Source: Isoptericola sp. BMS4
Lineage (GTDB): Bacteria; Actinomycetota; Actinomycetes; Actinomycetales; Cellulomonadaceae
Direction of reading: 5' to 3'
Length of the DNA stretch: 64,000 nt
NCBI RefSeq assembly: GCF_011634835.1
Contig: NZ_SIRP01000001.1
Location: 3,282,970 to 3,346,969 of the forward strand
Of the stretch, positions 2,563 to 26,927 are shown piece after piece. The notes beneath the pieces are model-generated. The model had not been told where the DNA came from. It saw only the letters and a list, made by a program, of their open reading frames with translations, and did not search any database. Numbering within the stretch: the first letter of the stretch is position 1; each line of letters starts with the position of its first letter. A program made the position numbers and the translations under genes.

Positions 2563-2599
2563 GTCGATGCTCCTTCGAACCGACGTCGGGGTGAGCGGC

Positions 2600-3538
2600 T
2601 CAGCAGAAGCCCGCCGCGGTCTCCCAGGCCCGGGGCTCCGCGGCGGCGCCCTCGCGCTTCACCTCCGCCTCGATCTTGCCGTACGGCCGGTCGGCGACGT
2701 AGAAGACCTCGTTGGGGTTCTCCATCCCGAAGGGCTCGAAGTCCACGACGAAGTGGTGCAGGTTCGGCATGGAGAACTTGATCTCCCCGATCTCCGGGTG
2801 GGCCTCCAGCACGCGCTTGCCCATCTGGTAGAGCGTCTGCTGCAGCGCGAGCGAGTGCACGTCCGCGAACGTCTCGAGCAGCAGCCGGCGCACGTCGTCG
2901 TACACCGCGTTGAAGTCGATGTCGAGCGTCGTGTAGCGCCACCGGGCCGTGACCGACGTCGCGAGGATCCGGTCGGTGGTCTCCTGCAGCGTGGTGAACC
3001 GGTCCTTGGGGAAGCCGTGGAACTCCGAGCCCGTGGACTTCAGCACCTTGAGGTCCTCCAGGCCCGCGACGACGAAGACCTCGTCCCCGTCGCGCTGCAC
3101 GAGGGCGGTGCGCGTCTCGGTCCCGCCCTTGACGAAGGCGTGGTCGTGCTCGCCGTCGGTCACGTGGCTCTCGAGCGAGGACGGGATGTGCTCCCAGGTG
3201 TACTCCTTGGCCTCCCAGCGCCCGCCCTCGATCCAGTCGAAGCTCGAGGTGAAGTGCTCGGAGAGGCGGATCGCGAACTGCTCGGGCGAGGCGATGCCCT
3301 CCTTCGCGAGCGCGAAGATCGTGTTCTTCTGCGTGTCGGTCGGGACGACGCGACCCTGGTCGCCGTCGATGTGCGCGGCGGAGAAGTCGCCGCGCAGCTG
3401 CGACGTCACCGAGAGCTCGGTGATCCGGTGACGCGACTGGTCGCGGTCGACCTTCATGACGCGGACCTCGGCCTTGCCGTACTGGTTGTCGCCCAGCACG
3501 ATCGTGCCCGTCTGCGTCTCGGTGGCGGTGGCGGTCAT
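2600..3538 (-). CDS. uox: Uricase (factor-independent urate hydroxylase)
   Basis: A 312-residue cofactor-free urate oxidase, near the family's usual length. It converts urate, oxygen and water to 5-hydroxyisourate and peroxide. The catalytic features are visible: Lys22 in YGKAEVRV, the Thr-Asp pair in VVPTDTQKNT (Thr67), and the late histidine in MPNLHHFVVD. Two tandem T-fold domains are expected. It lies between the downstream permease and the upstream uraH gene, whose product consumes 5-hydroxyisourate. A gap of about 130 bases with a strong hairpin separates it from uraH, wider than other gaps in the operon. Confidence 0.97.
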   Translation of the reverse strand: MTATATETQTGTIVLGDNQYGKAEVRVMKVDRDQSRHRITELSVTSQLRGDFSAAHIDGDQGRVVPTDTQKNTIFALAKEGIASPEQFAIRLSEHFTSSFDWIEGGRWEAKEYTWEHIPSSLESHVTDGEHDHAFVKGGTETRTALVQRDGDEVFVVAGLEDLKVLKSTGSEFHGFPKDRFTTLQETTDRILATSVTARWRYTTLDIDFNAVYDDVRRLLLETFADVHSLALQQTLYQMGKRVLEAHPEIGEIKFSMPNLHHFVVDFEPFGMENPNEVFYVADRPYGKIEAEVKREGAAAEPRAWETAAGFC

Positions 3539-3627
3539 CTCGCTAGCTCCTTTGATAGATGACGTGATCGATGGTGCGCCCCGTGCCAGGGACCGTCGAG
3601 ACGGTCTCGGTACGTCGGTGTACGCGA

Positions 3628-3651
3628 GGCCGCGGCGTCGGTGCCGCGGCC
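3628..3651 (-). promoter_or_regulatory. Hairpin in the uraH-uricase gap
   Basis: A perfect 9-base inverted repeat, GGCCGCGGC and GCCGCGGCC, with a 6-base loop lies in the gap between uraH and uricase. There is no T-run. It could be an intercistronic processing or stability hairpin that adjusts uricase expression relative to uraD and uraH. Its function is inferred only. Confidence 0.4.
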
Positions 3652-3670
3652 GGGGAGGTGGCCGCGCCGC

Positions 3671-4009
3671 TCAGCTGCCGCGGTACGTCGAGTACGCGAA
3701 CGGGCTGAGCAGGCAGGGCACGTGGTAGTGGTCGCGTCCCTCGGTGACGAAGAAGTCGATCGTGACGGACGGGTAGAACGTCGGGACGCCCTGGGCGGCG
3801 AAGTAGTCCCCGGTCGCGAACGTGACGCGGTAGGTGCCGGGGACGAGTGCGGCCGGCCCGAGCTCCTTGACGCGCCCGTCCTCGTCCGTCGTCGCCGTGG
3901 CCAGGCGCGTCGCGGCGTCGCCGTCGACACTCCAGAGCGTCACGGGCACACCGGCCGCCGGCGTCCCCGACACCGCGTCCAGGACGTGGGTGGTGATGTG
4001 CGAGGTCAT
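3671..4009 (-). CDS. uraH: 5-hydroxyisourate hydrolase (transthyretin-like)
   Basis: A 112-residue transthyretin-like protein that hydrolyses 5-hydroxyisourate to OHCU, the second step of urate breakdown. The N-terminal signature ITTHVLDAVSGTPAAGVPV and the C-terminal YRGS (family motif YRGS) are both present, as are conserved residues in HYHVPCLLSPFAYSTYRGS. The ATG at 4009 overlaps the stop of uraD by four bases (ATGA), so the two are translationally coupled. The longer in-frame extension upstream is only the uraD gene read in another frame. Confidence 0.96.
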   Translation of the reverse strand: MTSHITTHVLDAVSGTPAAGVPVTLWSVDGDAATRLATATTDEDGRVKELGPAALVPGTYRVTFATGDYFAAQGVPTFYPSVTIDFFVTEGRDHYHVPCLLSPFAYSTYRGS

Positions 4010-4509
4010 GCGAGCTCTCCCTCGAGTCTCAGGACGGCGATCTCCCGCAGCTGTTCGGCGGCGATCCTCCGCTCCGTGGTGGCGTCGTGGCCCAGGCGCT
4101 CCTGGAGCGAGGCGAGGATCTCCTCGGCGCTCCGCCCGGCCGCGCGGATGAGGAACACGTGCCCGAACCTCTCCTCGTAGGCACGGTTGCCGTCCTGCAG
4201 CCGCTCGGCGATGTCGCGGTCCGACGTGTCCACGCCGGCCTGCTCCTGACGCGAGTGTGCGGCGTCCGCCGCGTCGCCGTCGGCCCGCTCCCCGATGCGC
4301 GGGTGCCGCGCCAGCGCCGAGTCCACCTCCGCGTCCGTCCAGGGGTCCGCGACCGTGCGAGCCGCGTCCAGCGCCGCCGCGACGTCGGCGTACGGGCGGT
4401 GGGCCACGACCGCGTCGGCCCACCGGTCGACGGCCGCGCACGACAGCACCAGGTCCCGGGCCACCTCACGGTCCGCGGTGTTGAACGACTCGAGTGCAGC
4501 ACTCGTCAT
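4006..4509 (-). CDS. uraD: OHCU decarboxylase
   Basis: A 167-residue 2-oxo-4-hydroxy-4-carboxy-5-ureidoimidazoline decarboxylase that forms S-allantoin, the third step of urate breakdown. Conserved stretches include HPRIGE (the catalytic His lies in this region), SRQEQAG and NRAYEERFGHVFLIRAAGR. I chose the ATG at 4509 over an in-frame ATG nine codons upstream, because GAGGAGGAAC sits just before it and the family begins at about this point. It is first in the operon; the order uraD, uraH, uricase, permease gives the whole path from urate uptake to allantoin. Allantoinase is not in the window. Confidence 0.95.
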   Translation of the reverse strand: MTSAALESFNTADREVARDLVLSCAAVDRWADAVVAHRPYADVAAALDAARTVADPWTDAEVDSALARHPRIGERADGDAADAAHSRQEQAGVDTSDRDIAERLQDGNRAYEERFGHVFLIRAAGRSAEEILASLQERLGHDATTERRIAAEQLREIAVLRLEGELA

Positions 4510-4530
4510 CGAGCGTTCCTCCTCAGCCTC

Positions 4531-4545
4531 TTCCATTCTATGGAA
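4531..4545. promoter_or_regulatory. Palindromic operator of the urate operon
   Basis: TTCCATTCTATGGAA is a perfect 6-3-6 inverted repeat 21 bases upstream of the uraD start and just downstream of the predicted -10. IclR-family proteins commonly bind short TTCCA/TGGAA-type palindromes, and a site at the transcription start fits repression by the nearby IclR regulator. The pairing of protein and site is inferred. Confidence 0.6.
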
Positions 4546-5620: not shown

Positions 5621-6214
5621 GTGACCACCGCCGCAGCACACACACCCGCCGTCCGTGCCGCACGCCCCGAGGAGGCCGCGGAGCTCGCCTGGCTCGCCGC
5701 GCTCACGTTCCCCCTCGCCTGCCCCGCCGGGACACCCGTCGCGACCATGGCGGCCCACATCGCCGACCGGCTGTCCCCCGTCCGCTTCCGCACCTGGGCA
5801 CGGTCGCCCGAGCATGCTCTTCTCGTCGCCGCCGGCACCGGCGACGTCCCCGAGCCCGTCGGCTACGCCCTCGTCTCCTTCGGGTTGCCCGACGGGGCCG
5901 CGGAGCGCGACGCCCTGCTCGCGGCCACCGGCGACGAGGGGCCGTACGCCGAGCTGTCGAAGATCTACGTGCACCCGGGAGCCCAGGGCTCGGGCGTGGC
6001 CGGAGCGCTCATGGACGCGTCGGTCGCCGCCGCCGCGGCGCTCGCCGTCGACCACGGGCACCCCGGGGCGCCCCTCTGGCTCGGCACCAACGGCGAGAAC
6101 GCCCGCGCGCAGGCCTTCTACCGCAAGCACGGCTTCGACGTCGTGGGGCGGCGTACCTACGAGGTGGGCGGCGTGCAGCACGACGACGTCGTGATGCTGC
6201 GGGCGGCCTCCTGA
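5621..6214 (+). CDS. GNAT-family N-acetyltransferase
   Basis: A 197-residue GNAT acetyltransferase. The acetyl-CoA pyrophosphate loop is VHPGAQGSGVAGALM (about residues 118-132), and the C-terminal strand-helix pattern FYRKHGFDVVGRR is typical. I prefer the GTG at 5621 because TACATT lies 7 bases upstream, a leaderless arrangement seen elsewhere in the window; translation upstream of it does not look like protein. The substrate cannot be told. It stands alone between the gene-free stretch and the ebo operon and is followed by a GC-rich hairpin. Confidence 0.88.
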   Translation: MTTAAAHTPAVRAARPEEAAELAWLAALTFPLACPAGTPVATMAAHIADRLSPVRFRTWARSPEHALLVAAGTGDVPEPVGYALVSFGLPDGAAERDALLAATGDEGPYAELSKIYVHPGAQGSGVAGALMDASVAAAAALAVDHGHPGAPLWLGTNGENARAQAFYRKHGFDVVGRRTYEVGGVQHDDVVMLRAAS

Positions 6215-6218
6215 ACCG

Positions 6219-6255
6219 GCCGCCCGGCGCCGAGCGCACGCGCCGGGCCGGCGGC
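6219..6255 (+). terminator. Hairpin after the GNAT gene
   Basis: GCCGCCCGGCGC and GCGCCGGGCCGGC pair across a short loop just after the GNAT stop. There is no T-run, as is common for actinobacterial terminators. Confidence 0.45.
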
Positions 6256-6290
6256 GGACGCCCCCTCTACTATTCGCCGTCGCGCCACGT

Positions 6291-6314
6291 CTTTTGATTG
6301 CCAATCGACAAAAG
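6291..6314. promoter_or_regulatory. Candidate operator upstream of the ebo operon
   Basis: The outer arms CTTTTG and CAAAAG enclose an inner perfect palindrome GATTGCCAATC (6296-6306). It is an AT-rich island in GC-rich DNA, 88 bases before the first ebo-operon gene. A weak -10-like TAGCGT lies at 6321-6326. A regulator probably binds here; which one is unknown. Confidence 0.45.
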
Positions 6315-6401
6315 CCTCGCTAGCGTGGCGGCGGACGAAGGCGGGGACGCCTTCACCAGGGTGCTCGGTGCCGAGCACCGACAGGACCCCGGGGAGCGAC
6401 G

Positions 6402-7598
6402 ATGCACCACGCGACAGCGGACGACCAGACGACGACCGGACCCACGGGCCTCTGGCTCGTCGGGGCCCGAGGGTCGGTCGCCACCACGGCGGCCCTCGGC
6501 CTCGCCGCCCTGGCCGACGGTCAGGCCCCGGCCACGGGCTGCGTGACCGCGGGGACGTCCTTCGACGACGTCCCGCTGCCGGCGTTCGGAGACCTGGTCG
6601 TGGGCGGGCACGACGTCTCCCCCGTGACGATGCCCAAGCGTGCCGAGATGCTCGTCGAGACCGGCATGATCCCCCCGCGGCTGCTCGCGGCCACGCACCA
6701 CGCGCTCGAGGCCGCCGAGGCAGAGGTCCGCACCGGGTACGACCCGGCCGAGCACCGCGGCAGCCAGCAGGACGCCGCCGACCGGCTCGCCGCCGACATC
6801 ACGGCGTTCCGCGAGCGCCACGGCCTCGCCCGCGTCGTGGTGGTGGACGTCGCCTCGACGGAGCCACCGGTCACCCCGCGGCGCGAGCACGACGACGTCG
6901 ACGCGCTGCGCACCGCGCTCACCGACCCGGGGCGCGCGGTGCTGCCCGCCTCGTCGGTCGCCGCGTACGCCGCGGTCCTGGCCGGCGCCCCGTACGCCTC
7001 GTTCACGCCGTCGCCCGGCATGGCGCTGCCCGCCCTGACCCGGCTCGCCACGGAGGCCGGGCTGCCGGTCGCGGGCCAGGACGGCAAGACCGGCCAGACG
7101 TGGCTGCGCACCGTGCTGGCGCCCGCGTTCGCGGCCCGCGGGCTGCGCGTCCTGTCGTGGTCCGGGACCAACCTGCTCGGCGGCGGCGACGGCGCGACGC
7201 TCGCCGACCCGGAGGCGGTGCGCAGCAAGCTCGCCACGAAGACGCGCGGGCTGCGCGACCTCACCGGCAGCGACGTCACCCCCCTGCACATCGACAACGT
7301 GCCCGACCTCGGCGACACGAAGGTCGCGTGGGACCACGTGCACGTCGAGGGTTTCCTGGGCTCGCGGCTCACGCTGCAGACGACGTGGACCGCGTACGAC
7401 TCGATGCTCGCGGCGCCGCTCGTGCTCGACCTGGCGCGGCTGCTCGCCCTCGCGCACGCCGCGGGCCTCTCCGGCCCGGTGCCGGAGCTCGGGTTCTTCT
7501 TCAAGGACCCCTGGGCGTCCGACGTGCACGACGCCGCCGCGCAGGCGTCCGACCTCGCGGGCTGGGCGGCGCGCACGGCGGCGCGGGCGCGCTCGTGA
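6402..7598 (+). CDS. myo-Inositol-1-phosphate synthase-like NAD enzyme (first gene of ebo operon)
   Basis: A 398-residue protein of the inositol-3-phosphate synthase family, which cyclises glucose-6-phosphate to a cyclitol phosphate with NAD as catalyst. It has the N-terminal NAD fold (LVGARGSVATT, residues 19-29), FTPSPGMALPAL, GQDGKTGQTWLRTVL and the late KVAWDHVHVEGFLGS region. GGGGAGCG precedes the ATG. Its stop overlaps the start of the prenyltransferase gene (GTGA). In other ebo clusters a dehydroquinate-synthase-like cyclase (EboD) is present; none is seen here, so this enzyme probably supplies the cyclitol. The exact substrate is unproven; it may be a diverged paralog rather than the housekeeping synthase. 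Confidence 0.85.
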   Translation: MHHATADDQTTTGPTGLWLVGARGSVATTAALGLAALADGQAPATGCVTAGTSFDDVPLPAFGDLVVGGHDVSPVTMPKRAEMLVETGMIPPRLLAATHHALEAAEAEVRTGYDPAEHRGSQQDAADRLAADITAFRERHGLARVVVVDVASTEPPVTPRREHDDVDALRTALTDPGRAVLPASSVAAYAAVLAGAPYASFTPSPGMALPALTRLATEAGLPVAGQDGKTGQTWLRTVLAPAFAARGLRVLSWSGTNLLGGGDGATLADPEAVRSKLATKTRGLRDLTGSDVTPLHIDNVPDLGDTKVAWDHVHVEGFLGSRLTLQTTWTAYDSMLAAPLVLDLARLLALAHAAGLSGPVPELGFFFKDPWASDVHDAAAQASDLAGWAARTAARARS

Positions 7599-8536
7599 CG
7601 CCCCGGGACGTCGCGGAGCTCGTCCGCGCCCCCGCCGCGCTGACGGTGCTCGGCGACACGCTCGCGGGGGCCGCGGCGTCCGACCCCGCGTCGCCCGGCG
7701 CCCGCGCGGGCGGGCGCGACGTCGCGCGCCGCACGATGCTGCCCGCCGCGTCCGCCTGCCTCTACCTCGGCGGCATGGCGCTCAACGACTGGGCCGACCG
7801 CGACCTGGACGCCGTCGAGCGACCAGAGCGCCCCGTGCCCTCCGGGCGGGTGTCCGCGGGCCAGGCGCTCGTCGTGGGCGCGGGCCTCACGGCGGCGGGC
7901 GTCGCCCTCGCGGGCGCCGCCGGTGGCCGGCGGGCGCTCGGTGTCGCGCTCCCGCTGGCCGCGTGCGTGTGGGCGTACGACGGCGTCGCGAAGGACACCC
8001 CGGCCGGGCCCGTCGTCATGGCGGCCTGCCGCGGTCTCGACGTCCTGCTCGGCGCGGCGCCGACCGGGCTGCGGCCCGCCCTGCCCGCGGCGGCCGCGCT
8101 CGCCGCGCACACCGCCGGGGTCACCGCGCTGTCCCGGGGCGAGGTGCACGGCACGACGACGGCGGTCGCCGCCACGGTCGCGGCGGGCACCGTGGGGGTC
8201 ACCGCGTACACGGCGGGGACGGCCGTCGCGGCAGCCCGCCGGCCGCTCGCCGACGGCCCCGCCTCCCCGTCCGCCGGCAGGACCGCCGCCGTCGGCGCGG
8301 CGGTGGCCGCGGCCGCGTACACCGCCGCGTGCCTGCCGGCGCAGGTGCGCGCGGCCCGGGACCGTTCGGCGCCGGCCGCCCGCACGGCCACGGGCGCCGG
8401 GATCGCCGCGATGGTGCCGCTGCAGGCGGCGTGGGCGCTGCGGGGCGGACGCCTCGGCACGGCCGTCGTGCTGGGCGGCGTCGCCATCGCGGGCCGCCTG
8501 CTGCGCCGACGCCGGCGGGCGGTGAGCGTCACATGA
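7595..8536 (+). CDS. eboC: UbiA-like prenyltransferase, EboC type
   Basis: A 313-residue membrane protein of the UbiA superfamily (SCO3242/EboC type). The first aspartate-rich motif is LNDWADRDLDAVERPERP (about residues 65-82), and the second site is YDGVAKDTPAGP (about 128-139). Several alanine-rich membrane helices fill the rest. UbiA enzymes move polyprenyl chains from a diphosphate onto an acceptor using magnesium. The start is GTG at 7595, overlapping the previous stop; its own stop overlaps the next start (ATGA). Together with the inositol-phosphate-synthase-like neighbour it suggests a prenylated cyclitol or a lipid-linked intermediate, which is inference. Confidence 0.88.
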   Translation: MTPRDVAELVRAPAALTVLGDTLAGAAASDPASPGARAGGRDVARRTMLPAASACLYLGGMALNDWADRDLDAVERPERPVPSGRVSAGQALVVGAGLTAAGVALAGAAGGRRALGVALPLAACVWAYDGVAKDTPAGPVVMAACRGLDVLLGAAPTGLRPALPAAAALAAHTAGVTALSRGEVHGTTTAVAATVAAGTVGVTAYTAGTAVAAARRPLADGPASPSAGRTAAVGAAVAAAAYTAACLPAQVRAARDRSAPAARTATGAGIAAMVPLQAAWALRGGRLGTAVVLGGVAIAGRLLRRRRRAVSVT

Positions 8537-9486
8537 GCGGCGACGACCTCCCGACGAGTGCCGTGGCGACGCCGGACCCGCCGTTCACCCTCGGCTACGG
8601 CACCAACGGGTTCGGCGACCACCCGCTGCCGGACGCGCTCGACGTGCTGGACGCGCTCGGGTACGGCGCCGTCGCGCTGACCCTCGGGTTCCCGCACCTC
8701 GACCCGTTCGACGCGGGCACGGACTCCCGGGTGGCGCGGCTCGCGCGGCGGCTGGGCCGCATGCGCGACGGTGCCGGGGCCGCCGTCGTCGTGGAGACCG
8801 GGACCCGGTTCACGCTCGACCCGTGGACCAAGCACGCCCCGACGCTCGTCGACGCCGAGGCCGGACGCCGGATGCGCTACCTGGAGCGCGCCGTCGACGT
8901 GGCCGCGACGCTCGACGCACGCTGCGTGTCGTTCTTCTCCGGCGTCCTGCCCGCCGGCGACCGGCCGGCCGAGGGATGGGCCCGGCTGCGCGACCGGCTC
9001 CCCCTCCTGCTGGACCACGCCCGGGAGCAGGGGGTGCGCCTGTCGCTGGAGCCCGAGCCCGGGATGCTGGTCGAGACGGTGGCCGACGCGCTGCGGCTGC
9101 GCGACGACCTGGGCGCCGACGGTGCCGAGCTCGGCCTCACGGTCGACGTCGGGCACTGCCTGGTCGTGGAGCCCGAGGGGGTGGTCGGCGCGCTGCGTGC
9201 CGCCGGGCCCCACCTGGCGAACGTCCAGCTCGACGACATGCCGTCCACCCACCACGAGCACCGCCCGTTCGGCGAGGGCGAGATCGACCTGCCGCTCGTG
9301 CTCGCCACCCTCGCCGACGTCGGGTACACCGGCGTCGCCGCCGTCGAGCTCCCGCGGCACTCCCACGACGCGCCCGCCCTCGCGCGCCGGAGCCTCGCCG
9401 CGCTCCACGACGCGTGGGCGCGGGCCGCACAGGGCGGCCCCGCACGGCGCACCGCCCCCGGGACGAAGGAGGCTCGACCGGAATGA
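8533..9486 (+). CDS. Sugar phosphate isomerase/epimerase-like TIM barrel
   Basis: A 317-residue xylose-isomerase-like TIM barrel. Metal-ligand style motifs are visible: SLEPEPGMLVE (Glu), LTVDVGHC (Asp/His), NVQLDDMPSTHHEH and AAVELPRHSHDA. The ATG at 8533 overlaps the prenyltransferase stop by four bases, and its own stop overlaps the eboA start. The family isomerises or epimerises sugars, keto-sugars or cyclitols with a divalent metal. It is a separate gene from eboE later in the same operon, so this operon has two TIM-barrel members. The substrate is unknown; acting on a cyclitol made by the upstream synthase is a reasonable guess. Confidence 0.85.
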   Translation: MSGDDLPTSAVATPDPPFTLGYGTNGFGDHPLPDALDVLDALGYGAVALTLGFPHLDPFDAGTDSRVARLARRLGRMRDGAGAAVVVETGTRFTLDPWTKHAPTLVDAEAGRRMRYLERAVDVAATLDARCVSFFSGVLPAGDRPAEGWARLRDRLPLLLDHAREQGVRLSLEPEPGMLVETVADALRLRDDLGADGAELGLTVDVGHCLVVEPEGVVGALRAAGPHLANVQLDDMPSTHHEHRPFGEGEIDLPLVLATLADVGYTGVAAVELPRHSHDAPALARRSLAALHDAWARAAQGGPARRTAPGTKEARPE

Positions 9487-10124
9487 CCAGCACCCCCACC
9501 ACCGACCCGGCCGCGTGGCTGGAGCAGGCGCGCGCGGACGTCGCGCGCGACCCGGAGGCCGTGACCCGCGCGTTCGCGTTCGCCGCCCGCAAGGTGGGCC
9601 GCGAGCCGTTGCGCCCCGAGAACGATCCCGCGGGCGTCGTGCACGGCACGGTCGACGACGCCGCCCGGGCGGAGCTCGTCGTCGCCCTCGCCGAGCACCA
9701 CGGGGACCCCGACGAGCTCGCCGACCGGCTCGCGACCCTCTACCACCAGGGCGACGCGGCCGAGCGGCGTGGCGTGCTGCGCGGCCTCGACGCCCTCACC
9801 GGGCGCGGCCAGGTGCCGCCCGACGTCGTCGCGGTGGGCACCGAGCTCGCCGAGGACGCGCTGCGCGCCAACGACCAGGCGCTCGTCGCGGCCGCCGTCG
9901 GCCCGTTCGGCGCGCGGCACCTGGACCAGCACACCTGGCGGCACGCCGTCCTCAAGCTGGTCTTCCTGGGCGTGAGCCTCGACGCCGTCGCCGGCCTCGC
10001 CGACCGCGCGGACGGCGAGCTCGCCCGCATGGCCGCCGACTTCGCCGCGGAGCGCCGCGCCGCCGGCAGACCCGTCCCCGCCGACGTCGGCCGGCTGATC
10101 CCCACCGACACCACCCGGGAGTGA
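9483..10124 (+). CDS. eboA: EboA-domain protein
   Basis: A 213-residue helical protein resembling EboA, the marker protein of the ebo cluster, whose biochemical role is unknown. Visible traits are an N-terminal helix AWLEQARADVARD, the phrase AFAFAARKVGREPL, and a C-terminal segment HTWRHAVLKLVFLGVSLDAVAGL that is typical of EboA proteins. It has no signal peptide or membrane helix, so it is probably cytoplasmic. The ATG overlaps the previous stop, and the next gene starts two bases after its stop. Assignment rests on these phrases plus the company it keeps. Confidence 0.82.
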   Translation: MTSTPTTDPAAWLEQARADVARDPEAVTRAFAFAARKVGREPLRPENDPAGVVHGTVDDAARAELVVALAEHHGDPDELADRLATLYHQGDAAERRGVLRGLDALTGRGQVPPDVVAVGTELAEDALRANDQALVAAAVGPFGARHLDQHTWRHAVLKLVFLGVSLDAVAGLADRADGELARMAADFAAERRAAGRPVPADVGRLIPTDTTRE

Positions 10125-10126
10125 GC

Positions 10127-11005
10127 ATGCGCATCCTCGACCCGCACATCCACATGACGAGCCGCACCACGGACGACTACGAGGCGATGTACGCCGTGGG
10201 CGTGCGCGCCGTCGTCGAGCCGGCGTTCTGGCTCGGGCAGCCCCGCACGAGCGTGGGGTCGTTCCGCGACTACTTCGACTCGCTGCTCGGGTGGGAGCGG
10301 TTCCGGGCCGCGCAGTTCGGCATCCGGCACCACGCGACCATCGCCCTGAACCCCAAGGAGGCGAACGACCCCCGCTGCCGCGAGGTGCTCGACGAGATCC
10401 CCCGCTACCTGCTCAAGGACGGTGTCGTCGCCGTTGGTGAGGTCGGGTACGACTCGATGACGCCCGCCGAGGACGAGGTCTTCGCCGCGCAGCTCCAGCT
10501 GGCGCGCGACGCGGGGCTGCCGGTGCTCGTGCACACCCCGCACCGGGACAAGGCGGCCGGGACCCGCCGCACGCTCGACGTCGTGCGCGAGTCCGGCCTG
10601 CCGCCCGAGCAGGTGCTCGTCGACCACCTCAACGAGACGACCGTGGAGATGGTGCGCGACGCCGGCTGCTGGGCCGGGTTCTCCATCTACCCCGACACGA
10701 AGATGGACGAGGCGCGCATGGTCGCGCTGCTGCGCGAGTACGGCACGGAGCGGATGATCGTGAACTCCGCCGCGGACTGGGGCCGGTCCGACCCGCTGAA
10801 GACGGCGCGCACCGGGCACGCGATGCTCGAGGCCGGCTTCGGCGACGACGACGTCGACCAGGTGCTGTGGCGCAGCCCCGTGGCGTTCTACGAACAGTCG
10901 GGCAACCTCGTCCTCGACCCCGTGCCGGGCTTCGTCGCCGGCGAGGCGCCGCCGGCGGGCGTCGAGTTCGAGGGCTCGTCCGTGCTCCGCGGCGCACGGG
11001 TCTGA
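10127..11005 (+). CDS. eboB: TatD-family metal-dependent hydrolase, EboB type
   Basis: A 292-residue amidohydrolase-fold protein. All metal ligands expected of the TatD family are visible: DPHIHM near the N-terminus, VGEVGYD (Glu), LVHTPHRDK (His), VDHLNE (His) and NSAADWG (Asp). It is longer than classical TatD DNases and matches the EboB position in ebo clusters, where it is proposed to work on a metabolite rather than DNA. The ATG is two bases past the eboA stop, so coupling is likely. A 28-base gap with AAGGAG leads to eboE. Confidence 0.9.
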   Translation: MRILDPHIHMTSRTTDDYEAMYAVGVRAVVEPAFWLGQPRTSVGSFRDYFDSLLGWERFRAAQFGIRHHATIALNPKEANDPRCREVLDEIPRYLLKDGVVAVGEVGYDSMTPAEDEVFAAQLQLARDAGLPVLVHTPHRDKAAGTRRTLDVVRESGLPPEQVLVDHLNETTVEMVRDAGCWAGFSIYPDTKMDEARMVALLREYGTERMIVNSAADWGRSDPLKTARTGHAMLEAGFGDDDVDQVLWRSPVAFYEQSGNLVLDPVPGFVAGEAPPAGVEFEGSSVLRGARV

Positions 11006-11033
11006 GGGCGCGGGACCGAGAAGGAGCGCACCG

Positions 11034-12224
11034 ATGCGACTGTCCTACTGCACCAACGTCCACCCGGCCGAGGACCTCGACGGCGTCCTCGACCAGCTCG
11101 CCCGGTACGCGGCGCCGATCCGGCGCCAGGCCGGGCTCGACCGGCTCGGCGTCGGCCTGTGGCTGCCCGCCGAGCTCGCGCACCGGCTCGACCGGTCGCC
11201 CGCGGACCGCGCCCTGCTGCGCGCGACGCTCGACCGGCACGGCCTCGAGGTGCACACCCTCAACGCCTTCCCGTACGGCGCCTTCCACTCCGACGTCGTC
11301 AAGCACGCCGTCTACTCCCCCACCTGGGCCGAGCGCGCCCGCCTCAACTACGTGCTCGCCTGCGCCCGCGTCCTCGCCGACCTGCTGCCCGACGGCGTGG
11401 ACGGCTCGATCTCGACCCTCCCGCTCGCCTGGCGCGCCCCGTGGACACCGCTGGACGACGCGGAGGCCACCCGCGCCTTCGCGACGCTCTCCGCCGGGCT
11501 GCGGGAGCTGGCCGCGCGCACGGGGAAGGTGGTGCGCGTCGCCGTCGAGCCGGAGCCCGGCTGCGTGCTGGACACCGTCGACGACGTCGTCGGCTGGCTG
11601 GCTCCGCGCACGGCCGCGGCCCGCGCCGACGACGAGCGCATCGACCCCGAGCTCGTCGGCGTCTGCCTGGACACCTGCCACCTCGCCGTGTCGTTCGCCG
11701 ACCCGGGGGCGGCCGTGCGCCGCATCACCGACGCCGGGCTGCGCGTCGTCAAGGTGCAGGCGTCGGCGGCCCTGCACGTCGACGACCCGGCCGACGCGGG
11801 CGCACGCGCCGCCGTCGAGCGCTTCGTCGAGAAGCGGTACCTGCACCAGACCCGCGAGCTCGCCCCCGACGGTGCGGTGCTCGGCGCCGACGACCTGCCG
11901 GAGGCGCTCGCGGCGCTGCCCGGCGCAGGGCCGTGGCGCGTGCACTTCCACGTGCCGCTGCACCACGAGCCCGCCGCGCCCCTGACCTCGACCACCGAGG
12001 TCCTGCGGGAGGCCGTCGCGGCCGTCGCCGCGGCGCCGCACGGTGCCGACGCGCACCTCGACGTCGAGACGTACACCTGGTCGGTGCTGCCCGCCGAGAC
12101 CCTGCCCGCCGGCGCCGACGAGCTCGTCGCCGGCATCGCGGCCGAGCTGAGGTGGGCGGACGAGCACCTACGGCCCGCCGGCACCCCCGCCGGCGCCGCA
12201 CCCCGCCCCGCCCCCGCCGCCTGA
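11034..12224 (+). CDS. eboE: EboE-like metabolite traffic TIM barrel
   Basis: A 396-residue TIM-barrel protein starting MRLSYCTNVHPAEDLDGV, the hallmark opening of EboE. Later motifs AVEPEPGCVLDTVDD, GVCLDTCHLAVSF and VHFHVPLHHEP carry candidate metal ligands, and the end HLDVETYTWSVLP is also typical. In Nostoc the ebo genes are needed to move scytonemin precursors to the periplasm, hence the name metabolite traffic; the catalytic role is not established. AAGGAG lies just ahead of the ATG. An Ala/Pro-rich tail closes the protein. Eleven bases separate it from eboF. Confidence 0.9.
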   Translation: MRLSYCTNVHPAEDLDGVLDQLARYAAPIRRQAGLDRLGVGLWLPAELAHRLDRSPADRALLRATLDRHGLEVHTLNAFPYGAFHSDVVKHAVYSPTWAERARLNYVLACARVLADLLPDGVDGSISTLPLAWRAPWTPLDDAEATRAFATLSAGLRELAARTGKVVRVAVEPEPGCVLDTVDDVVGWLAPRTAAARADDERIDPELVGVCLDTCHLAVSFADPGAAVRRITDAGLRVVKVQASAALHVDDPADAGARAAVERFVEKRYLHQTRELAPDGAVLGADDLPEALAALPGAGPWRVHFHVPLHHEPAAPLTSTTEVLREAVAAVAAAPHGADAHLDVETYTWSVLPAETLPAGADELVAGIAAELRWADEHLRPAGTPAGAAPRPAPAA

Positions 12225-12234
12225 AGGAGCCGCC

Positions 12235-13653
12235 ATGAAGCCCGTCCTGCTGCTCGACGTCGTCGGGCTCACCGCCCGCGCGCTGTCGCACATGCCCCGC
12301 CTGAGCCGGCTCGCCGCCGGCGGCTGGTCGTCCGAGCTCGCGACGGTGCTGCCCGCCGTGACGTGCAGCGTGCAGTCCACGATGCTCACCGGCCTGGCCC
12401 CCGCCCAGCACGGCGCCGTCGGCAACGGCTGGTACTTCCGGGGGCTCGGCGACGTCTACCTGTGGCGCCAGCACAACCGGCTCGTGGCCGGGGAGAAGCT
12501 CTGGGAGGCCGGCCGCGCCGCCGACCCCGGCTACTCCGCCGCGAACGTGTGCTGGTGGTACGCGATGGGGATGACGACCGACGCCACCGTCACCCCGCGC
12601 CCCGTCTACCACGCGGACGGGCGCAAGTCCCCCGACGCGTACGTGCGCCCGGCCACCCTGCACGACGAGCTCACCGATCTGCTCGGCGACTTCCCGCTGT
12701 TCACGTACTGGGGCCCCACCGCGTCGATCACGTCGTCCCGCTGGGTCGTCGGCGCCACGCAGCACCTCATGCGCACGCGCGGCCACGACCTCACGATGGC
12801 GTACGTGCCGCACCTGGACTACGACCTGCAGCGGTTCGGCCCGGACTCCCCGCAGGCCGACGCCGCCGCGGCCGCCCTCGACGCCGCGCTGACGCCGCTG
12901 CTCGACCAGGCCGAGGCCGACGGCGTCACCGTGGTCGCCGTGTCCGAGTACGGGATCGGGCCCGCCGACCGCCCGGTGCACCTCAACCGGCTGCTGCGCC
13001 GCGAGGGCCTGCTCGAGGTGTACGTGCAGGACGGCCGCGAGCAGCTCGACCCGTGGACGTCCCGCGCGTTCGCCGTCGCCGACCACCAGGTCGCCCACGT
13101 GTACGTGGCCGACGACGCCGACCTCGCGCGGGTGGCCGGCCTGCTGCGCGAGGTCCCCGGCGTCGACGAGGTGCTCGACCGCGAGGCGCAGGCCCGGTAC
13201 GGGATCGACCACGAGCGCGCCGGCGAGCTGGTCGTCGTCGCCGAGCCGGGGGCCTGGTTCACGTACTACTTCTGGCTCGACGACGACCGGGCGCCGGAGT
13301 ACGCGCGCGGCGTCGACATCCACCGCAAGCCCGGCTACGACCCGGCGGAGCTGTTCTTCGACCCCGCGGACCGGCTGGCGAAGGCGAAGGCGGGCATGAA
13401 CCTGGTGCGCAAGAAGCTCGGCCTGCGGTACGCCATGAGCACGGTCCCGCTCGACCCGTCGTGCGTCGGCGGCACGCACGGGCGCCTGCCGACGTCGTCC
13501 GCGGACACGCCGCTGATCCTGTGCTCCGACGACGCCGTGCCGTCCTCGGTGGCCGGCCTCGTGGGCGCCGACGACCGGCAGGTGCCGGCCGCGGCGGTGA
13601 AGGACCTCGTGCTCGAGCTGCAGGGGGTGCGCGACCCCGCCGTCGCGGGCTGA
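12235..13653 (+). CDS. eboF: Alkaline-phosphatase-superfamily phosphodiesterase, EboF type
   Basis: A 472-residue member of the nucleotide pyrophosphatase/phosphodiesterase branch of the alkaline phosphatase superfamily. Visible active-site elements are LLLDVVGLT (first Asp), PAVTCSVQSTMLTG (nucleophilic Thr), PHLDYDLQRFGP (Asp/His), SEYGIGP and GGTHGRLP (His). There is no signal peptide, so it appears cytoplasmic like other EboF proteins. It is the last gene of the operon, preceded by GAAGGAG and followed by a large hairpin. A phosphate-ester or diphosphate-removing step in the ebo pathway is the likely job. Confidence 0.9.
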   Translation: MKPVLLLDVVGLTARALSHMPRLSRLAAGGWSSELATVLPAVTCSVQSTMLTGLAPAQHGAVGNGWYFRGLGDVYLWRQHNRLVAGEKLWEAGRAADPGYSAANVCWWYAMGMTTDATVTPRPVYHADGRKSPDAYVRPATLHDELTDLLGDFPLFTYWGPTASITSSRWVVGATQHLMRTRGHDLTMAYVPHLDYDLQRFGPDSPQADAAAAALDAALTPLLDQAEADGVTVVAVSEYGIGPADRPVHLNRLLRREGLLEVYVQDGREQLDPWTSRAFAVADHQVAHVYVADDADLARVAGLLREVPGVDEVLDREAQARYGIDHERAGELVVVAEPGAWFTYYFWLDDDRAPEYARGVDIHRKPGYDPAELFFDPADRLAKAKAGMNLVRKKLGLRYAMSTVPLDPSCVGGTHGRLPTSSADTPLILCSDDAVPSSVAGLVGADDRQVPAAAVKDLVLELQGVRDPAVAG

Positions 13654-13682
13654 GCCCCCGAGGCGCGGCCCCTGGGCACGGG

Positions 13683-13732
13683 ACGACGGCGGCGGCCCGG
13701 GACGCGACGATCGCGTCCCGGGCCGCCGTCGT
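13683..13732. terminator. Bidirectional terminator hairpin
   Basis: A long near-perfect inverted repeat (arms of about 20 bases, core GGCCCGGGACGCG and CGCGTCCCGGGCC) sits between the convergent ends of eboF and the secreted TIM-barrel gene, so it can end transcripts from both sides. Confidence 0.75.
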
Positions 13733-13764
13733 GGGCGAGGCCGGCCCTCAGCCGGCCGGGCGGA

Positions 13765-14757
13765 TCACCCGCACCGCCCGCCGCGCAGGGCGAGAAGCGC
13801 GTCGGCGCTCCGCCCGGCGTTGCCCAGCGAGTCGAGCTCGTGCGGGGGCTCCGCCACCGAGGCGGCGTTGTCCTGCTCCCAGATGCCGTGCTGCCGGCCG
13901 GACCCCGTCAGCGCCCCGAGGAACGCCTGGTAGTCGATGTCCCCGACGCCGAACTCGACCATGTCGTACCCGCCGGCCGAGTCCGGGTTCGTCCGGCCGT
14001 CCTTGAGGTGGAACAGCGGGTAGCGGGACCGGTTCGCCAGGACGTACTCCACGGGCTCGAACCCGGGGTAGCGGTGCTGCCCGACGAACGCCCAGTACAC
14101 GTCCATCTCGAGGAACACCGAGGCGGGGTCCGTGTGCTCCAGGAAGACGTCGTACAGCCGGACCGACGGGTCGTCCTCGGCGAACCCGAACTCGCCGTCG
14201 TGGTTGTGCTGGTAGAACTTCAGCCCGCGGGCCGCGGCCGCCTCGCCGAAGCCGTTGAACTGCTCGGCGGCCGCGCGGTACCCGTCGACGGTCCGGTCGT
14301 TCGTCGGGGCGTCGGCCGTGCCGACGTGCCGCATGCCGAGGGTCTCGGCGATGTCGAGCTCGGCCTCCATGTTCGCCGCGAAGTCGCGGATCCCGCGGTG
14401 CGACCCGACCGCGACGAGGCCGTTGTCGTCGAGCAGCGTCCGGATCTCGGCCGGCGTGATCGGCCCGACCTGGTTCTGCGTGTACCCGGCGAACTCCACC
14501 TCGGCGTACCCCAGCTCGGCGAGCCGCTCGAACACGGCGCGGAACCCGAGCGACGACACCTTGTCACGGATCGAGTACAGCTGGATGCCGAGCTTGCCCG
14601 GCGGCACGAGGCGCCGCCCCTGCCCGGCGGGCGCGGCGGAGGCCGCCGGGGCGGCGGACGCCGCGGTCGTGCCGCCGAGCGTGGCGGCACCGACGGCGAC
14701 GGAGGAGCCCGCGAGACGCATGAAGGTCCTGCGGTCGAGCGCGGAACGGATGGTCAT
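13765..14757 (-). CDS. Tat-exported sugar isomerase/epimerase-like TIM barrel
   Basis: A 330-residue protein with a twin-arginine signal (DRRTFMRLAGSSVAVGAATL, residues 8-27), then a xylose-isomerase-like TIM barrel starting LGIQLYSIRDKV. Candidate metal ligands are in YQHNHDGEFG, VFLEMDVYWA, FHLKDGR and the late WEQDNA. Such exported barrels accompany ThuA and Gfo/Idh proteins in loci that attack keto-sugars or glycosides outside the cytoplasm. It is the last gene of the minus-strand sugar operon and has AAGGAG before the ATG. Tat export suggests folding with a metal before secretion. The substrate is not known. Confidence 0.87.
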   Translation of the reverse strand: MTIRSALDRRTFMRLAGSSVAVGAATLGGTTAASAAPAASAAPAGQGRRLVPPGKLGIQLYSIRDKVSSLGFRAVFERLAELGYAEVEFAGYTQNQVGPITPAEIRTLLDDNGLVAVGSHRGIRDFAANMEAELDIAETLGMRHVGTADAPTNDRTVDGYRAAAEQFNGFGEAAAARGLKFYQHNHDGEFGFAEDDPSVRLYDVFLEHTDPASVFLEMDVYWAFVGQHRYPGFEPVEYVLANRSRYPLFHLKDGRTNPDSAGGYDMVEFGVGDIDYQAFLGALTGSGRQHGIWEQDNAASVAEPPHELDSLGNAGRSADALLALRGGRCG

Positions 14758-14804: not shown

Positions 14805-15806
14805 TCACTTCGTGGAGAAGGCGGCGTCGAACGCCGCCTCGGGGGCGTCGAACGCGTACCGGCGCACGAACTCCAGGGCCTCGGGGGCGCCGACCAGGCG
14901 GTCCATCCCGGCGTCCTCCCACTCGACCGAGATCGGCCCCGTGTACTCGATCGAGTTGAGCATCCGGAACGCGTCCTCCCAGGGCACGTCGCCGTGCCCG
15001 GTGGAGATGAAGTCCCAGCCGCGGCGCGGGTCCGCCCACGCCAGGTGCGAGCCCAGGCGCCCGTTGCGCCCGTTGTGCATCCGCTTCTTCGTGTCCTTGC
15101 AGTCCACGTGGTAGATACGGTCGCGGAAGTCCCACAGGAACGCGACGGGGTCCAGGTCCTGCCACACCATGTGCGACGGGTCCCAGTTCAGCCCGAACGC
15201 CTCGCGGTGCCCGATCGCCTCCAGCGTGCGCACGGTCGTCCAGTAGTCGTACGCGATCTCGGACGGGTGGACCTCGTGCGCGAACCGCACCCCCACCTCG
15301 TCGAACACGTCCAGGATCGGGTTCCACCGGTCCGCGAAGTCCTGGTAGCCCGCGTCGACCATGTCCTGCGAGGCCGGCGGGAACATCGCCACGTACTTCC
15401 AGATCGACGACCCGGTGAACCCCACGACGGTGTCCACACCGAGCTTCGCCGCCAGGCGCGCCGTGTGCTGCATCTCCTCGGCCGCGCGGCGCCGCACGCC
15501 CTCGGGGTCGCCGTCGCCCCACACGACGTCGGGCAGGATGTCGCGGTGGCGCTGGTCGATCGGGTCGTCGCAGACCGCCTGGCCCTTGAGGTGGTTGGAG
15601 ATCGCCCAGACCTTCAGCCCGTACCTCTCGAGCAGGTCCTTGCGCGACTGCACGTAGGCGTCGTCGTCCCAGCGCCACGGGTCGAGGTGGTCGCCCCAGC
15701 AGGCGAGCTCGAGCCCGTCGTACCCCCACTCCGAGGCCAGCCGAGCCACCTCCTCGAGCGGGAGGTCCGCCCACTGCCCGGTGAACAGAGTGATCGGTCG
15801 TGCCAT
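14805..15806 (-). CDS. Sugar phosphate isomerase/epimerase-like TIM barrel (cytoplasmic)
   Basis: A 333-residue xylose-isomerase-like TIM barrel with no signal peptide. It opens [16 protein letters not shown] and shows likely metal ligands in [34 protein letters not shown] and [22 protein letters not shown] precedes the ATG. The family includes inosose, hydroxypyruvate and keto-sugar isomerases and C-glycoside-cleaving enzymes. It probably handles the cytoplasmic product of the neighbouring Gfo/Idh dehydrogenase. It lies between the Tat-exported barrel and the giant secreted protein. Confidence 0.88.
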
Positions 15807-16007: not shown

Positions 16008-19000
16008 TCAGCCGCAGTCCACCTCCTCGAGAGTGACCACGGTGGTCACGCGACCGCCGTCGGCGGCCTCCCAGCCGTCACCCGCGACCAGGTCGGTGCG
16101 GGGAGCCGGCGAGGCGGTCACGCGGTAGTCGCCCGGCGCGAGGTTCGTGCCGTCGAGCTTCTTGCCCTTGCCGTCGGCACGGATCTCGTACCTCTTGACG
16201 GTGTCCATGGGCACGCCGGTGATCGTCCCGCCCGCGTCGCAGGTCGGCGGCTCGACGAGGACGGCGGGCACGCCCTGCGGCGGGCACTCCGGCTCGTCGA
16301 CAGTGACCCGCAGCACGCCGATGCCGGCGGCGTTGACCCGCCAGCCCTCACCGGGCTCGACGACGTAGCCGTCGGCCGGCCGGGCGGCGACCCGGTAGGT
16401 GCCGGGGTCGAGGTCGGACGGGTCGTCGACGACCGCCCCGGCCCCGTCCTCGGTGACCGGCCGGATCACGTAGCGCAGCCCCTCGACGTCGGCGGTCACG
16501 ATCGCCCCGCCCGTGACGTCGTACGCGCCGTCCGGCGCCCACGTGCAGGTGGCCTGCGTGACCTCCGCACCAGGCGTCACGGGTGTCGCCGGCGTGGCGA
16601 TCGTGAACGTCACCGGGTCGCCGACGACGGTCTCGCCGTCGACGGACGCCCGCACCTCGACGGTGTGGTCGCCCGGATCCGCGACCTCGACGGGAGCGGT
16701 GTACTCGACCCACCCCGCGCCGTCGACGTTCACCTCGCGGTACACGGTGGCGCCGTCGGGCCCCCCGGTCGTGGAGACCGAGACCGTGACCGGACCGAGC
16801 CACGCCCCGCCCTCGCCGTCCGGCTCGGACGGCTCGAGGCTCGCGGCGACCTCCAGCGGTGCGACGTCGTCCGTCAGCACCCGGAAGTGGTCGAACGAGG
16901 CCGGCACGTTCGCGTCGCCCTGCGCGCCGCCGCCCAGGGCGAAGAGCCCGACCGACGCCGTGTCCAGCGCGGTGTTCTCGACGACGCCGACGTCCGTCCA
17001 GGTCTCCCCGTCCGGGCTGTAGGCACCGGTGTAGGTGTCACCGGAGCGGGTGAGCCGGAGCCAGGCCTCGGCACCGACGTCCTGGACGCCGGGCTGCGGC
17101 TCCAGGATCTCGGCGTCGAGCTCGCTGCGCAGCTCGATGCGCCGGTGCACGTCGGAGCCCGCGGTGTTGTCGGCCACCAGGTCGAGCTTCACGTAGTGGT
17201 CGTCGTCGCCGTACAGGAGGATCCCGCCCTGCTGGTACTGGCGGTCGAACGCCGACCCGTCGACGCGGGTCTGCACGGTCCACTCGTCACCCGGCTGGGG
17301 CTGGAGCACCAGGTTCGGCACGTCGGAGTTGTCACCCGTGTAGATGTCGTTCGGCGACGTGTCGATCTCCAGGGCGCCACCGGCGACCCGGTAGCCGTCG
17401 GTGTCCTCGTTCAGGACGCTCCAGCGGCAGGCGTCCAGCGCGTCGCCGTCGAACTCGTCGTCCGGCCCCGTGGCCACCGAGTCGTCCGGCGTGATGTGGA
17501 ACCAGTCGAACGACGCGTCCACGACCGGGGCGGACGTGCCGTTGCCGGCGAGCGCCACGAGCCCGATCCGCGGGTCGGTGAGACCGGCCAGCGACTTCGT
17601 CTCCGGCATGTCCGTGAAGGTCACGCCGTCGTGCGAGTAGGACGCGTTCAGCGATGTCCCGTCGGTCGACGTGAACCGCACGTAGACCGTGGACGGGTAG
17701 TCCGCGCCGAGCGCGGCGGTGTTGGAGTCACCGACCTCGTTCGGCTGACCGCCCTCCTCGCGGATGAACTGGAAGATGCGCGTCGCCGGGTCGGCCGGGG
17801 CCGAGCGCCCCTGCAGCACCATCTTCGCGTAGTCGTCCGGTCCGTCGTAGATGAGCAGGCCGGCCTGCTGGTACTGGGCGTCCGCCTCGACCGTGAGCTT
17901 CGCGGTCGCGGTGAACGGCCCGTCAGGCAGGTCCTGCAGCACCAGGTTGGGCACGGTGGTGTTGTCGGAGCCGTAGAAGTCGCTCACCGACGCCGGGACC
18001 ACGAGGGACCCGTCCGCGACGTGGAGCTGCTGGTCGCGGTCGACGACGGTCCAGCGGTCCTCGTCGAGCTCGGTGCCGTCGAACCCGTCCGATCGGCCGT
18101 CGAGGCAGATCGGCGGCGGGACGACCTCGCCGGTGACCGTGACGGTGGCGTCCTCGACGGTGTACGCGCCGAGCTCGTCGGTCACGCGCACCTGGAGGCG
18201 GTACTCCCCCGGTTCGTCGTAGGTCACGGAGAAGTCCTCCGAGCCGTCGACGAACCCGCCGCCGAGCCCGTCGTCCCACGCGTAGCTGAGCGCGTGGCCC
18301 TCGGGGTCGGTGGCGGCCACGGAGGCCGTGACCTCCAGGGGCGCCTCGCCGGCGAGCGGTCCGACGTCGAACGTGTCGACCTCGGGCCGGGAGTTGGTCG
18401 CCGCGCCGGTCCCGGTGAACTCGACCCAGTTGACGTTGATCCCGCCGTCGAGCAGGACGAAGTACAGCGTCCCGCTGCCGTCGGGCACGTCGCCGAGCGT
18501 GGTGCTGACGTCGGTGTACGCCTGCCAGTCACCCGTGTCCGGGACGGTGATCTGCCCGAGCTCCGGTCCGTCGGGGGCGTCCCAGCGCACGGAGACGGTG
18601 CCGCCGCCCGCGCCGGTCGCGGCCCGCAGGCCGATCTCGTCGACGCCGTCGAGGCTGATCCGCTCGTACGCCCACCAGTCGTCGGGCTCGATGTAACCGA
18701 GGTTCAGCCCGCCGCCGGCGCTGTCGCCGGTCTCCTCGGTCTGCACGCCGGCGTCACCGTCGCTGCTCGACCCGGCCAGCCGGCCGGTGTCGGTGAAGAA
18801 CTCCGCCTGGAGCAGCTTCGGCTGCAGGATCTGCTGGTGCGTCGTCGTCAGCGGGACGCCGGCGTCGCCGCCGTCGTCGGTGAACTCGGCCTCGAGCACC
18901 CAGAAGAGCCGCGCCTCGATGCCGTGGCCCTCGTCGCGCGCGGTCTGCACGACGCCGGAGCAGCCGTCGAGCACCTCGATCGGGTGGCCGTGGGTGTCGT

Positions 19001-22987: not shown

Positions 22988-23035
22988 CGACCCCTCCTTT
23001 GCGTGTGCGTGTGTCGTGGTGTGGTGCGCCGGGCG

Positions 23036-24103: not shown

Positions 24104-24213
24104 GTCATCTTCCTCGATTCGGTCCGGGTGCTGCTGGTGGATGCTGCTGCTGGTGCGAGGGCCGTCGCCGGTCCGGTGGGTGACGGCGCGGCCGATCACA
24201 GGGATGTCGAGCG

Positions 24214-26859: not shown

Positions 26860-26888
26860 AACCTAGGCCCACTTATGCCGATCGTCAA
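26860..26888 (-). promoter_or_regulatory. Promoter of the sugar operon
   Basis: On the minus strand TTGACG (26888-26883), a 17-base spacer and TAGGTT (26865-26860). The -10 ends 7 bases before the ATG at 26852, predicting a leaderless transcript. Confidence 0.6.
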
Positions 26889-26903
26889 GCAAAAGTGGCG
26901 GGT

Positions 26904-26918: not shown

Positions 26919-26927
26919 ACTGTGTTC

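Follow-up and report, generated by a model that had tools for sequence, protein, structure and literature searches.

A conserved actinobacterial variant of the ebo operon with a MIPS-family cyclase and a TIM barrel protein in the place of EboD

Introduction

The ebo operon, named in 2016, has a six-gene ABCDEF form, which the available part of Yurchenko (2016; PMC5133447) places in eustigmatophyte plastids, Bacteroidota and Cyanobacteria. Here, a seven-gene operon is described which is a variant of this known ebo operon, and which lies in a 64,000 nt stretch (referred to as the window) of the genome of the actinobacterium Isoptericola sp. BMS4 (assembly GCF_011634835.1, contig NZ_SIRP01000001.1, positions 3,282,970 to 3,346,969).

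In the portions of the 2016 study that are available, an isoprenoid-cyclitol product was proposed for EboD-type operons, and fusions of EboA with a xylose-isomerase-like domain were reported from actinobacteria (PMC5133447); the word 'inositol' is absent from its main text. According to the accessible sections of Klicki (2018; PMC6282210), ebo mutants of Nostoc retain the scytonemin monomer in the cytoplasm, ebo reportedly being required there for metabolite release to the periplasm, and the ebo genes of Nostoc punctiforme have EboD nearby. A prenyltransferase study, as far as its available text extends, also describes its ebo set with EboD (PMC9235831). In the calcium-dependent antibiotic (CDA) cluster of Streptomyces coelicolor, SCO3243 is listed as a myo-inositol phosphate synthase (MIPS) in the part of PMC3610822 that could be accessed. 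No description of a MIPS-bearing ebo operon was present among the literature matches listed, the coverage of which mostly excludes subscription literature.

Gene content of the operon

The operon consists of seven tightly packed genes on the + strand (6402-13653; largest gap 28 nt), flanked by a palindrome and a hairpin. Positions are those of the window.

6291-6314, no strand: operator-like palindrome CTTTTG-N12-CAAAAG, separated from the MIPS start codon by 87 nt
6402-7598, + strand: MIPS-like NAD-dependent cyclase of archaeal type, 398 aa (PF07994, PF01658)
7595-8536, + strand: EboC, membrane prenyltransferase of the UbiA superfamily, GTG start (PF01040, NF045897, NDxxD)
8533-9486, + strand: TIM2, xylose-isomerase-like TIM barrel with a keto-sugar epimerase fold
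9483-10124, + strand: EboA (NF035938)
10127-11005, + strand: EboB, TatD-like amidohydrolase (PF01026)
11034-12224, + strand: EboE, TIM barrel (NF035939)
12235-13653, + strand: EboF, type I phosphodiesterase/nucleotide pyrophosphatase family (PF01663)
13686-13732, no strand: GC-rich hairpin between convergent genes, a possible terminator (arms of 22 nt, 95% complementary, loop of 3 nt)

The stop and start codons of the first four genes overlap by 4 nt (7595-7598, 8533-8536 and 9483-9486), while EboA and EboB, EboB and EboE, and EboE and EboF are separated by 2, 28 and 10 nt, respectively. Profile searches identified EboA (EboA_domain NF035938, 156.6 bits, cut-off 50), the predicted structure of which is all-helical (predicted local distance difference test score of 95.2), and EboE (NF035939, 439.2 bits, cut-off 250). 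The first gene product matched both domains of the MIPS family (PF07994, 166.5 bits; PF01658, 103.7 bits), TIM2 matched AP_endonuc_2 (120.6 bits), EboB matched TatD (PF01026, 53.0 bits, cut-off 27) and EboF matched Phosphodiest (PF01663, 203 bits). EboC was shown to belong to the UbiA superfamily (PF01040, 69.4 bits, cut-off 34.2), its first Asp-rich motif, NDxxD, being present in 18 of 18 sequences, and was assigned to the subtype that NCBI names after SCO3242 of the CDA cluster ('SCO3242 family prenyltransferase', NF045897, 314.1 bits, cut-off 260). In S. coelicolor, SCO3237-3243 probably constitutes the whole operon.

These seven identities had been put forward in an original prediction made from the DNA sequence alone, and all seven open reading frames (ORFs) were located at the positions given there, with profiles and synteny in agreement and with the profile check that it had proposed for EboA and EboE positive for both proteins. 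The start given in that prediction, 6291, corresponds to the first base of the operator-like palindrome, whereas the first codon is located at 6402.

EboA, EboB, EboC, EboE and EboF are thus held in common with the ABCDEF form and with Nostoc punctiforme, by profile or homology, and are encoded together on one strand. EboD, however, is not among the ORFs of the window, and the locus is therefore classified as a variant and not as the six-gene form. A MIPS-like cyclase and a second TIM barrel are present instead, in the order MIPS-C-TIM2-A-B-E-F.

Replacement of EboD

The sole gene of dehydroquinate (DHQ) synthase type found in the BMS4 genome is 0.77 Mb away from the operon and scored 170 bits with an EboD-like profile (cut-off 333 bits). 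With the same profile, none of the 296 Actinomycetota genomes drawn for a survey exceeded the cut-off (best score 219.6 bits), compared with 571 bits for EboD of Azospirillum. EboD was similarly absent from all 80 loci of a scan of named genomes, which represent the best 80 of at least 587 matches and are all actinobacterial. Conversely, EboD was identified by profile in all seven EboD-type regions fetched from other phyla, and neither MIPS nor TIM2 reached 40 bits in any of them; the region of Ketogulonicigenium contains another annotated sugar isomerase downstream.

Plasmid records yielded 49 EboE matches, of which 32 are actinobacterial. MIPS was present on the same record in at least 28 of these 32, among the matches listed (40 of 44), and the remaining four are from Streptomyces, one being a fragment. 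One Gemmatirosa record also carries MIPS, one weak haloarchaeal EboE match adjoins MIPS, and all 15 records from Pseudomonadota, Deinococcota and Bacteroidota carry EboD. Because no protein passes the EboD cut-off in the 296 Actinomycetota genomes and MIPS and TIM2 are missing from the seven EboD-type regions, MIPS and TIM2 occupy the place of EboD, which is the enzyme present in the other phyla looked at, and look like a non-homologous replacement of it. In this respect, the gene set had aptly been called 'rewired', as profiles, synteny and the genome survey all bear out.

A TIM2 and MIPS pair was also observed in Hymenobacter, Methylobacterium and one further genome, in sequence stretches where no ebo gene was seen (L047 at 7590-14216, L048 and L173, the third being an actinobacterium). 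The association of TIM2 seems to be with MIPS and not with ebo as such, and the pair outside ebo possibly represents a separate cyclitol pathway; in Hymenobacter, it is accompanied by HD, Gfo/Idh/MocA, YcaO and PIG-L genes. In the EboD-bearing loci of Aureibacter, Mycetohabitans and Gloeothece (L046, L053 and L186), the ebo genes have two neighbours in common, which encode a ferritin-like protein and a large hypothetical protein.

Profile comparison with solved structures revealed that the MIPS-like family is closest to Archaeoglobus fulgidus MIPS (1u1i, 322.9 bits) and distant from 1gr0 (64.9 bits), presumably the Mycobacterium tuberculosis type of enzyme, as well as from the five-membered-cyclitol-phosphate synthase 6k96 (72.1 bits). 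Residues N257, L259, D263, K276, K280, K307 and K368 of the window enzyme are invariant in 11 sequences and match N255, L257, D261, K274, K278, K306 and K367 of A. fulgidus MIPS, the catalytic Asp, Asn and Lys residues being included. The two enzymes therefore share their catalytic residues, 1u1i being the best solved relative, and differ in that the window enzyme is encoded in an ebo operon. Alignments show differences from 1u1i at K278 and K367 in the deposited variants 3qvw and 3qvx; for the other matched residues, a catalytic role is assumed here. TIM2 has the same fold as the keto-sugar epimerases/isomerases 3wqo, UlaE and IolI, at approximately 20% identity, and its conserved Glu, Asp and His positions are presumably those of the metal site.

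Distribution among Actinomycetota

EboE was found above its cut-off in 17 of the 296 surveyed genomes, and 18 regions around EboE matches were fetched from 17 other genomes. All seven genes, which the original prediction had expected to co-occur elsewhere, were present in the same order in 16 of these 18 regions, one of which has TIM2 and EboA in a single ORF. The two exceptions are a second copy within a genome, without MIPS, and a region with a split, below-cut-off EboE and neither MIPS nor TIM2, which looks degraded (L041 in genome G244). An alignment search with the operon-type MIPS returned 17 of the 296 genomes at 553-635 bits, with the next score at 330 bits, and these are exactly the 17 EboE genomes (chance of co-occurrence 5.5e-28, kinship ignored). 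In the scan of named genomes, MIPS was present in 55 of the 80 loci, a further 11 being cut by a contig end before the MIPS position. In two Streptomyces loci (L151 and L152), partial MIPS matches stand beside TIM2 and EboA. Counts that depend on the gene caller are lower bounds. The seven-gene operon is thus a conserved, standard form of ebo in Actinomycetota, a status that had escaped the original prediction.

For neighbouring genes, 98 actinobacterial loci were compared (the window, L024-L040 and L056-L135), among them contig-cut loci and loci with incomplete gene calls. A polyprenyl diphosphate synthase was observed in 10 of the 98 loci, and four encode an Idi-like NUDIX protein.

Related loci carry the theme beyond Bacteria. 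Plasmids of Natronococcus and Halocatena (L042 and L043) encode TatD, UbiA, two TIM2-like barrels, MIPS and an EboF-like phosphodiesterase together; neither locus contains EboA or an EboE near its cut-off, and they are called no more than ebo-like here. Further along the Natronococcus locus, a GSDH protein with a plastocyanin domain at its end is encoded, and genes for sugar ABC transporters and TIM barrels are located close to the haloarchaeal clusters. A tree built from 50 proteins, 1u1i not among them, placed the ebo-linked MIPS proteins of Actinomycetota, Gemmatirosa and the two haloarchaea on one side of a branch with a support of 99/100.

Shared palindrome and sugar locus

The palindrome upstream of the operon, CTTWTG-N12-CAWAAG, was found to have exactly two exact sites in the 4.43 Mb genome of BMS4, compared with none for the backwards control. 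Both are in the window, where 0.01 sites are expected at up to one mismatch: one (6291-6314) precedes MIPS, and the other, about 20 kb away, is located between the ABC ATPase and ROK genes of the following locus.

13765-14757, - strand: TIM barrel with a Tat-like signal at the N-terminus, first gene of the sugar locus (PF01261, 60.2 bits)
14805-15806, - strand: third TIM barrel (PF01261, 146.9 bits)
16008-21617, - strand: ThuA, GSDH, PKD and CBM6 protein of 1869 aa, probably secreted (Pfam, N-terminus)
21809-26852, - strand: Gfo/Idh/MocA oxidoreductase, sugar-binding protein, ABC permease and ABC ATPase (Pfam)
26872-26895, no strand: second copy of the palindrome, CTTATG-N12-CAAAAG (motif search)
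26922-28112, + strand: ROK-family regulator, a candidate for binding the palindrome (PF00480, 190.4 bits)

An operator-like sequence is therefore common to the operon and to a locus of sugar enzymes in the same window, a connection that the original prediction had not seen. Six related genomes were shown to contain one to three exact sites each, and the palindrome is also located upstream of the ebo MIPS in Promicromonospora, Microbacterium and, with one mismatch, Oerskovia. Microbacterium testaceum has both sites, at the ebo operon and at an ABC transporter. In Promicromonospora, one site is at ebo and the other is one gene from a GSDH/ThuA gene approximately 1 Mb away. All three exact sites of Oerskovia are at ROK/ABC/GSDH loci on a different contig from ebo, the one-mismatch site at its ebo operon having no sugar genes nearby. 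Because the palindrome recurs at ebo and at transporter or ThuA/GSDH loci, the latter being unlinked from ebo in Promicromonospora and Oerskovia, ebo and the sugar enzymes seem, from motif positions, to form one regulon in at least four of the seven genomes, and the shared operator is probably bound by the ROK regulator. The shared sequence would represent a regulatory link to extracellular sugar chemistry.

Homologues of the GSDH protein, the Tat-type TIM barrel and the third TIM barrel were observed in 44, 37 and 33 of the 98 actinobacterial loci, respectively. GSDH is located within 10 kb of EboE in 12 of the 17 EboE genomes, compared with a mean chance of 0.018 per genome and a best result of five in 200,000 simulations, which ignore kinship.

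Proposed pathway and alternatives

With moderate confidence, we interpret the operon as a form of ebo with a different enzyme for ring formation, which would make a prenyl-linked cyclitol with a function at the membrane or outside it and be co-expressed with the sugar locus; the prenylated cyclitol suggested in the original prediction fits this interpretation. The substrates, order of steps, product and role that we infer are as follows. The NAD-dependent MIPS-family cyclase would close a hexose phosphate, most likely glucose-6-phosphate, to an inositol-type cyclitol phosphate, replacing the step of EboD, a sugar phosphate cyclase of DHQ synthase type. TIM2, as a keto-sugar-epimerase-like metalloenzyme, may then adjust the cyclitol or its keto form, and EboE (the second TIM barrel), EboB (amidohydrolase) and EboF (phosphodiesterase family) would tailor it, with EboB and EboF acting as hydrolases. 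At the membrane, EboC may add a polyprenyl group, and the components may be held together by EboA, which is alpha-helical and repeat-like. The prenyl-linked cyclitol would act at or outside the membrane, and in this strain its synthesis would be coordinated with that of the sugar importer and of the secreted keto-sugar enzymes (ThuA/GSDH) through a common operator, to which the ROK regulator probably binds.

Two unrelated ring-closing enzymes in one slot suggest that the rest of the pathway needs a carbocyclic polyol, and since the reaction typical of one enzyme's family is well understood, the ebo pathway becomes testable. The MIPS variant and the apparently shared switch are new handles on a long-unsolved pathway.

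Several observations weigh against this interpretation. Regarding gene identities, EboC scored below the NCBI EboC equivalog (NF035940, 137.9 versus 250 bits) and EboA below EboA_family (NF035937, 66.3 versus 320 bits), and three EboE genomes (G143, G192 and G222) carry extra DHQ-synthase-like genes, which are below the EboD cut-off. Among the 80 loci, 14 have room upstream but no MIPS in the cluster, and in one of these genomes, that of Streptomyces alanosinicus, no ebo-type MIPS was found elsewhere. Regarding the palindrome, the single exact sites of Georgenia and Arthrobacter are 2.2 and 1.6 kb before MIPS, respectively, and do not adjoin it, the exact site of Zhihengliuella is at unlabelled genes elsewhere, and the backwards control motif had one match in the six related genomes, in Arthrobacter. 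GSDH was not seen in 54 of the 98 loci, a count to which loci cut by contig ends and genes missed by the gene caller contribute, and the annotation tables of the seven EboD-type regions name no GSDH-type product. Finally, EboF accompanies either cyclase, even though phosphate is released by enzymes of the EboD type, from which it follows that EboF cannot simply dephosphorylate the MIPS product; as EboE and EboF serve both cyclase types, their substrates are probably in the shared, later part of the pathway.

For the MIPS-less clusters, the enzyme may be supplied from a second cluster, because 13 of the 14 genomes carry an ebo-type MIPS elsewhere, in 10 cases beside other ebo genes. Upstream of eight MIPS-less clusters, seven of them from named Streptomyces (L025, L098, L100, L102, L105, L118, L119 and L129), there is both a flavin amine-oxidase-like gene and a gene of the inositol-monophosphatase family, and a P450 gene is often located downstream.

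A possible but less probable explanation, drawn by analogy with the proposal made for scytonemin monomer export in Nostoc, is that ebo makes a glycolipid-like carrier which moves small molecules across the membrane, the cyclase swap altering its head group only. The scytonemin monomer retained in the cytoplasm of Nostoc ebo deletion strains would be consistent with such a carrier (PMC6282210, available part), as would the actinobacterial copies in biosynthetic clusters, with SCO3242 and SCO3243 listed as CDA-cluster genes in the accessible part of PMC3610822. On one Streptomyces plasmid, the neighbours are aromatase/cyclase and oxidoreductase genes. As in Nostoc punctiforme, a ScyD/ScyE family gene stands beside the operon on two Streptomyces plasmids, directly upstream of MIPS (L055 at 6191-7393 and L188 at 5933-7132), with a multicopper oxidase gene downstream, which also makes scytonemin-like oxidative coupling outside cyanobacteria possible; an aromatic prenyltransferase gene is nearby as well. 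In the BMS4 genome, the ScyE profile, the only scytonemin-related search performed, yielded no match above cut-off (22 versus 80 bits). However, the seven-gene set has no transporter as a fixed part, and the partner of the palindrome here is a sugar importer with secreted sugar enzymes and not the pathway of an export substrate.

More doubtful is the idea that the ebo product is a lipid-soluble compound derived from a cyclitol, which secreted beta-propeller oxidoreductases use as a redox mediator or cofactor. These enzymes would be ThuA/GSDH proteins in BMS4 and related strains, ScyE in some Streptomyces as well as in cyanobacteria, and the haloarchaeal GSDH-plastocyanin protein, and the Nostoc phenotype would then reflect failed periplasmic oxidation chemistry and not transport itself.

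It is rather unlikely that the operon is part of a locus for sugar or cyclitol catabolism, with MIPS and the TIM barrels acting on an unusual sugar after its import. The palindrome is common to the ABC importer, Gfo/Idh/MocA, ThuA and TIM barrel genes, and ROK repressors are typical of catabolic loci, but a membrane prenyltransferase with an intact motif and neighbouring prenyl diphosphate synthases would have no obvious role in such a locus, and other copies of the operon are in biosynthetic surroundings. That MIPS just supplies inositol phosphate for mycothiol or phosphatidylinositol, its position in ebo being incidental, is highly improbable, as, despite its intact catalytic set, the operon protein fails the mycothiol-type INO1 equivalog (TIGR03450, 32.7 versus 638 bits), forms its own clade and is found only with EboE among the 296 genomes, and the BMS4 genome encodes a separate, canonical-looking INO1 (C1:299999).

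Neighbouring genes

Upstream of the operon, a purine-catabolism group (877-4536) was observed, which encodes Xan_ur_permease, uricase and OHCU decarboxylase. On one of the two Streptomyces plasmids with a ScyD/ScyE family gene, a PLSDB tet(W/32/O) prediction (L055 at 18439-18762) is located on an annotated 2Fe-2S protein and looks spurious.

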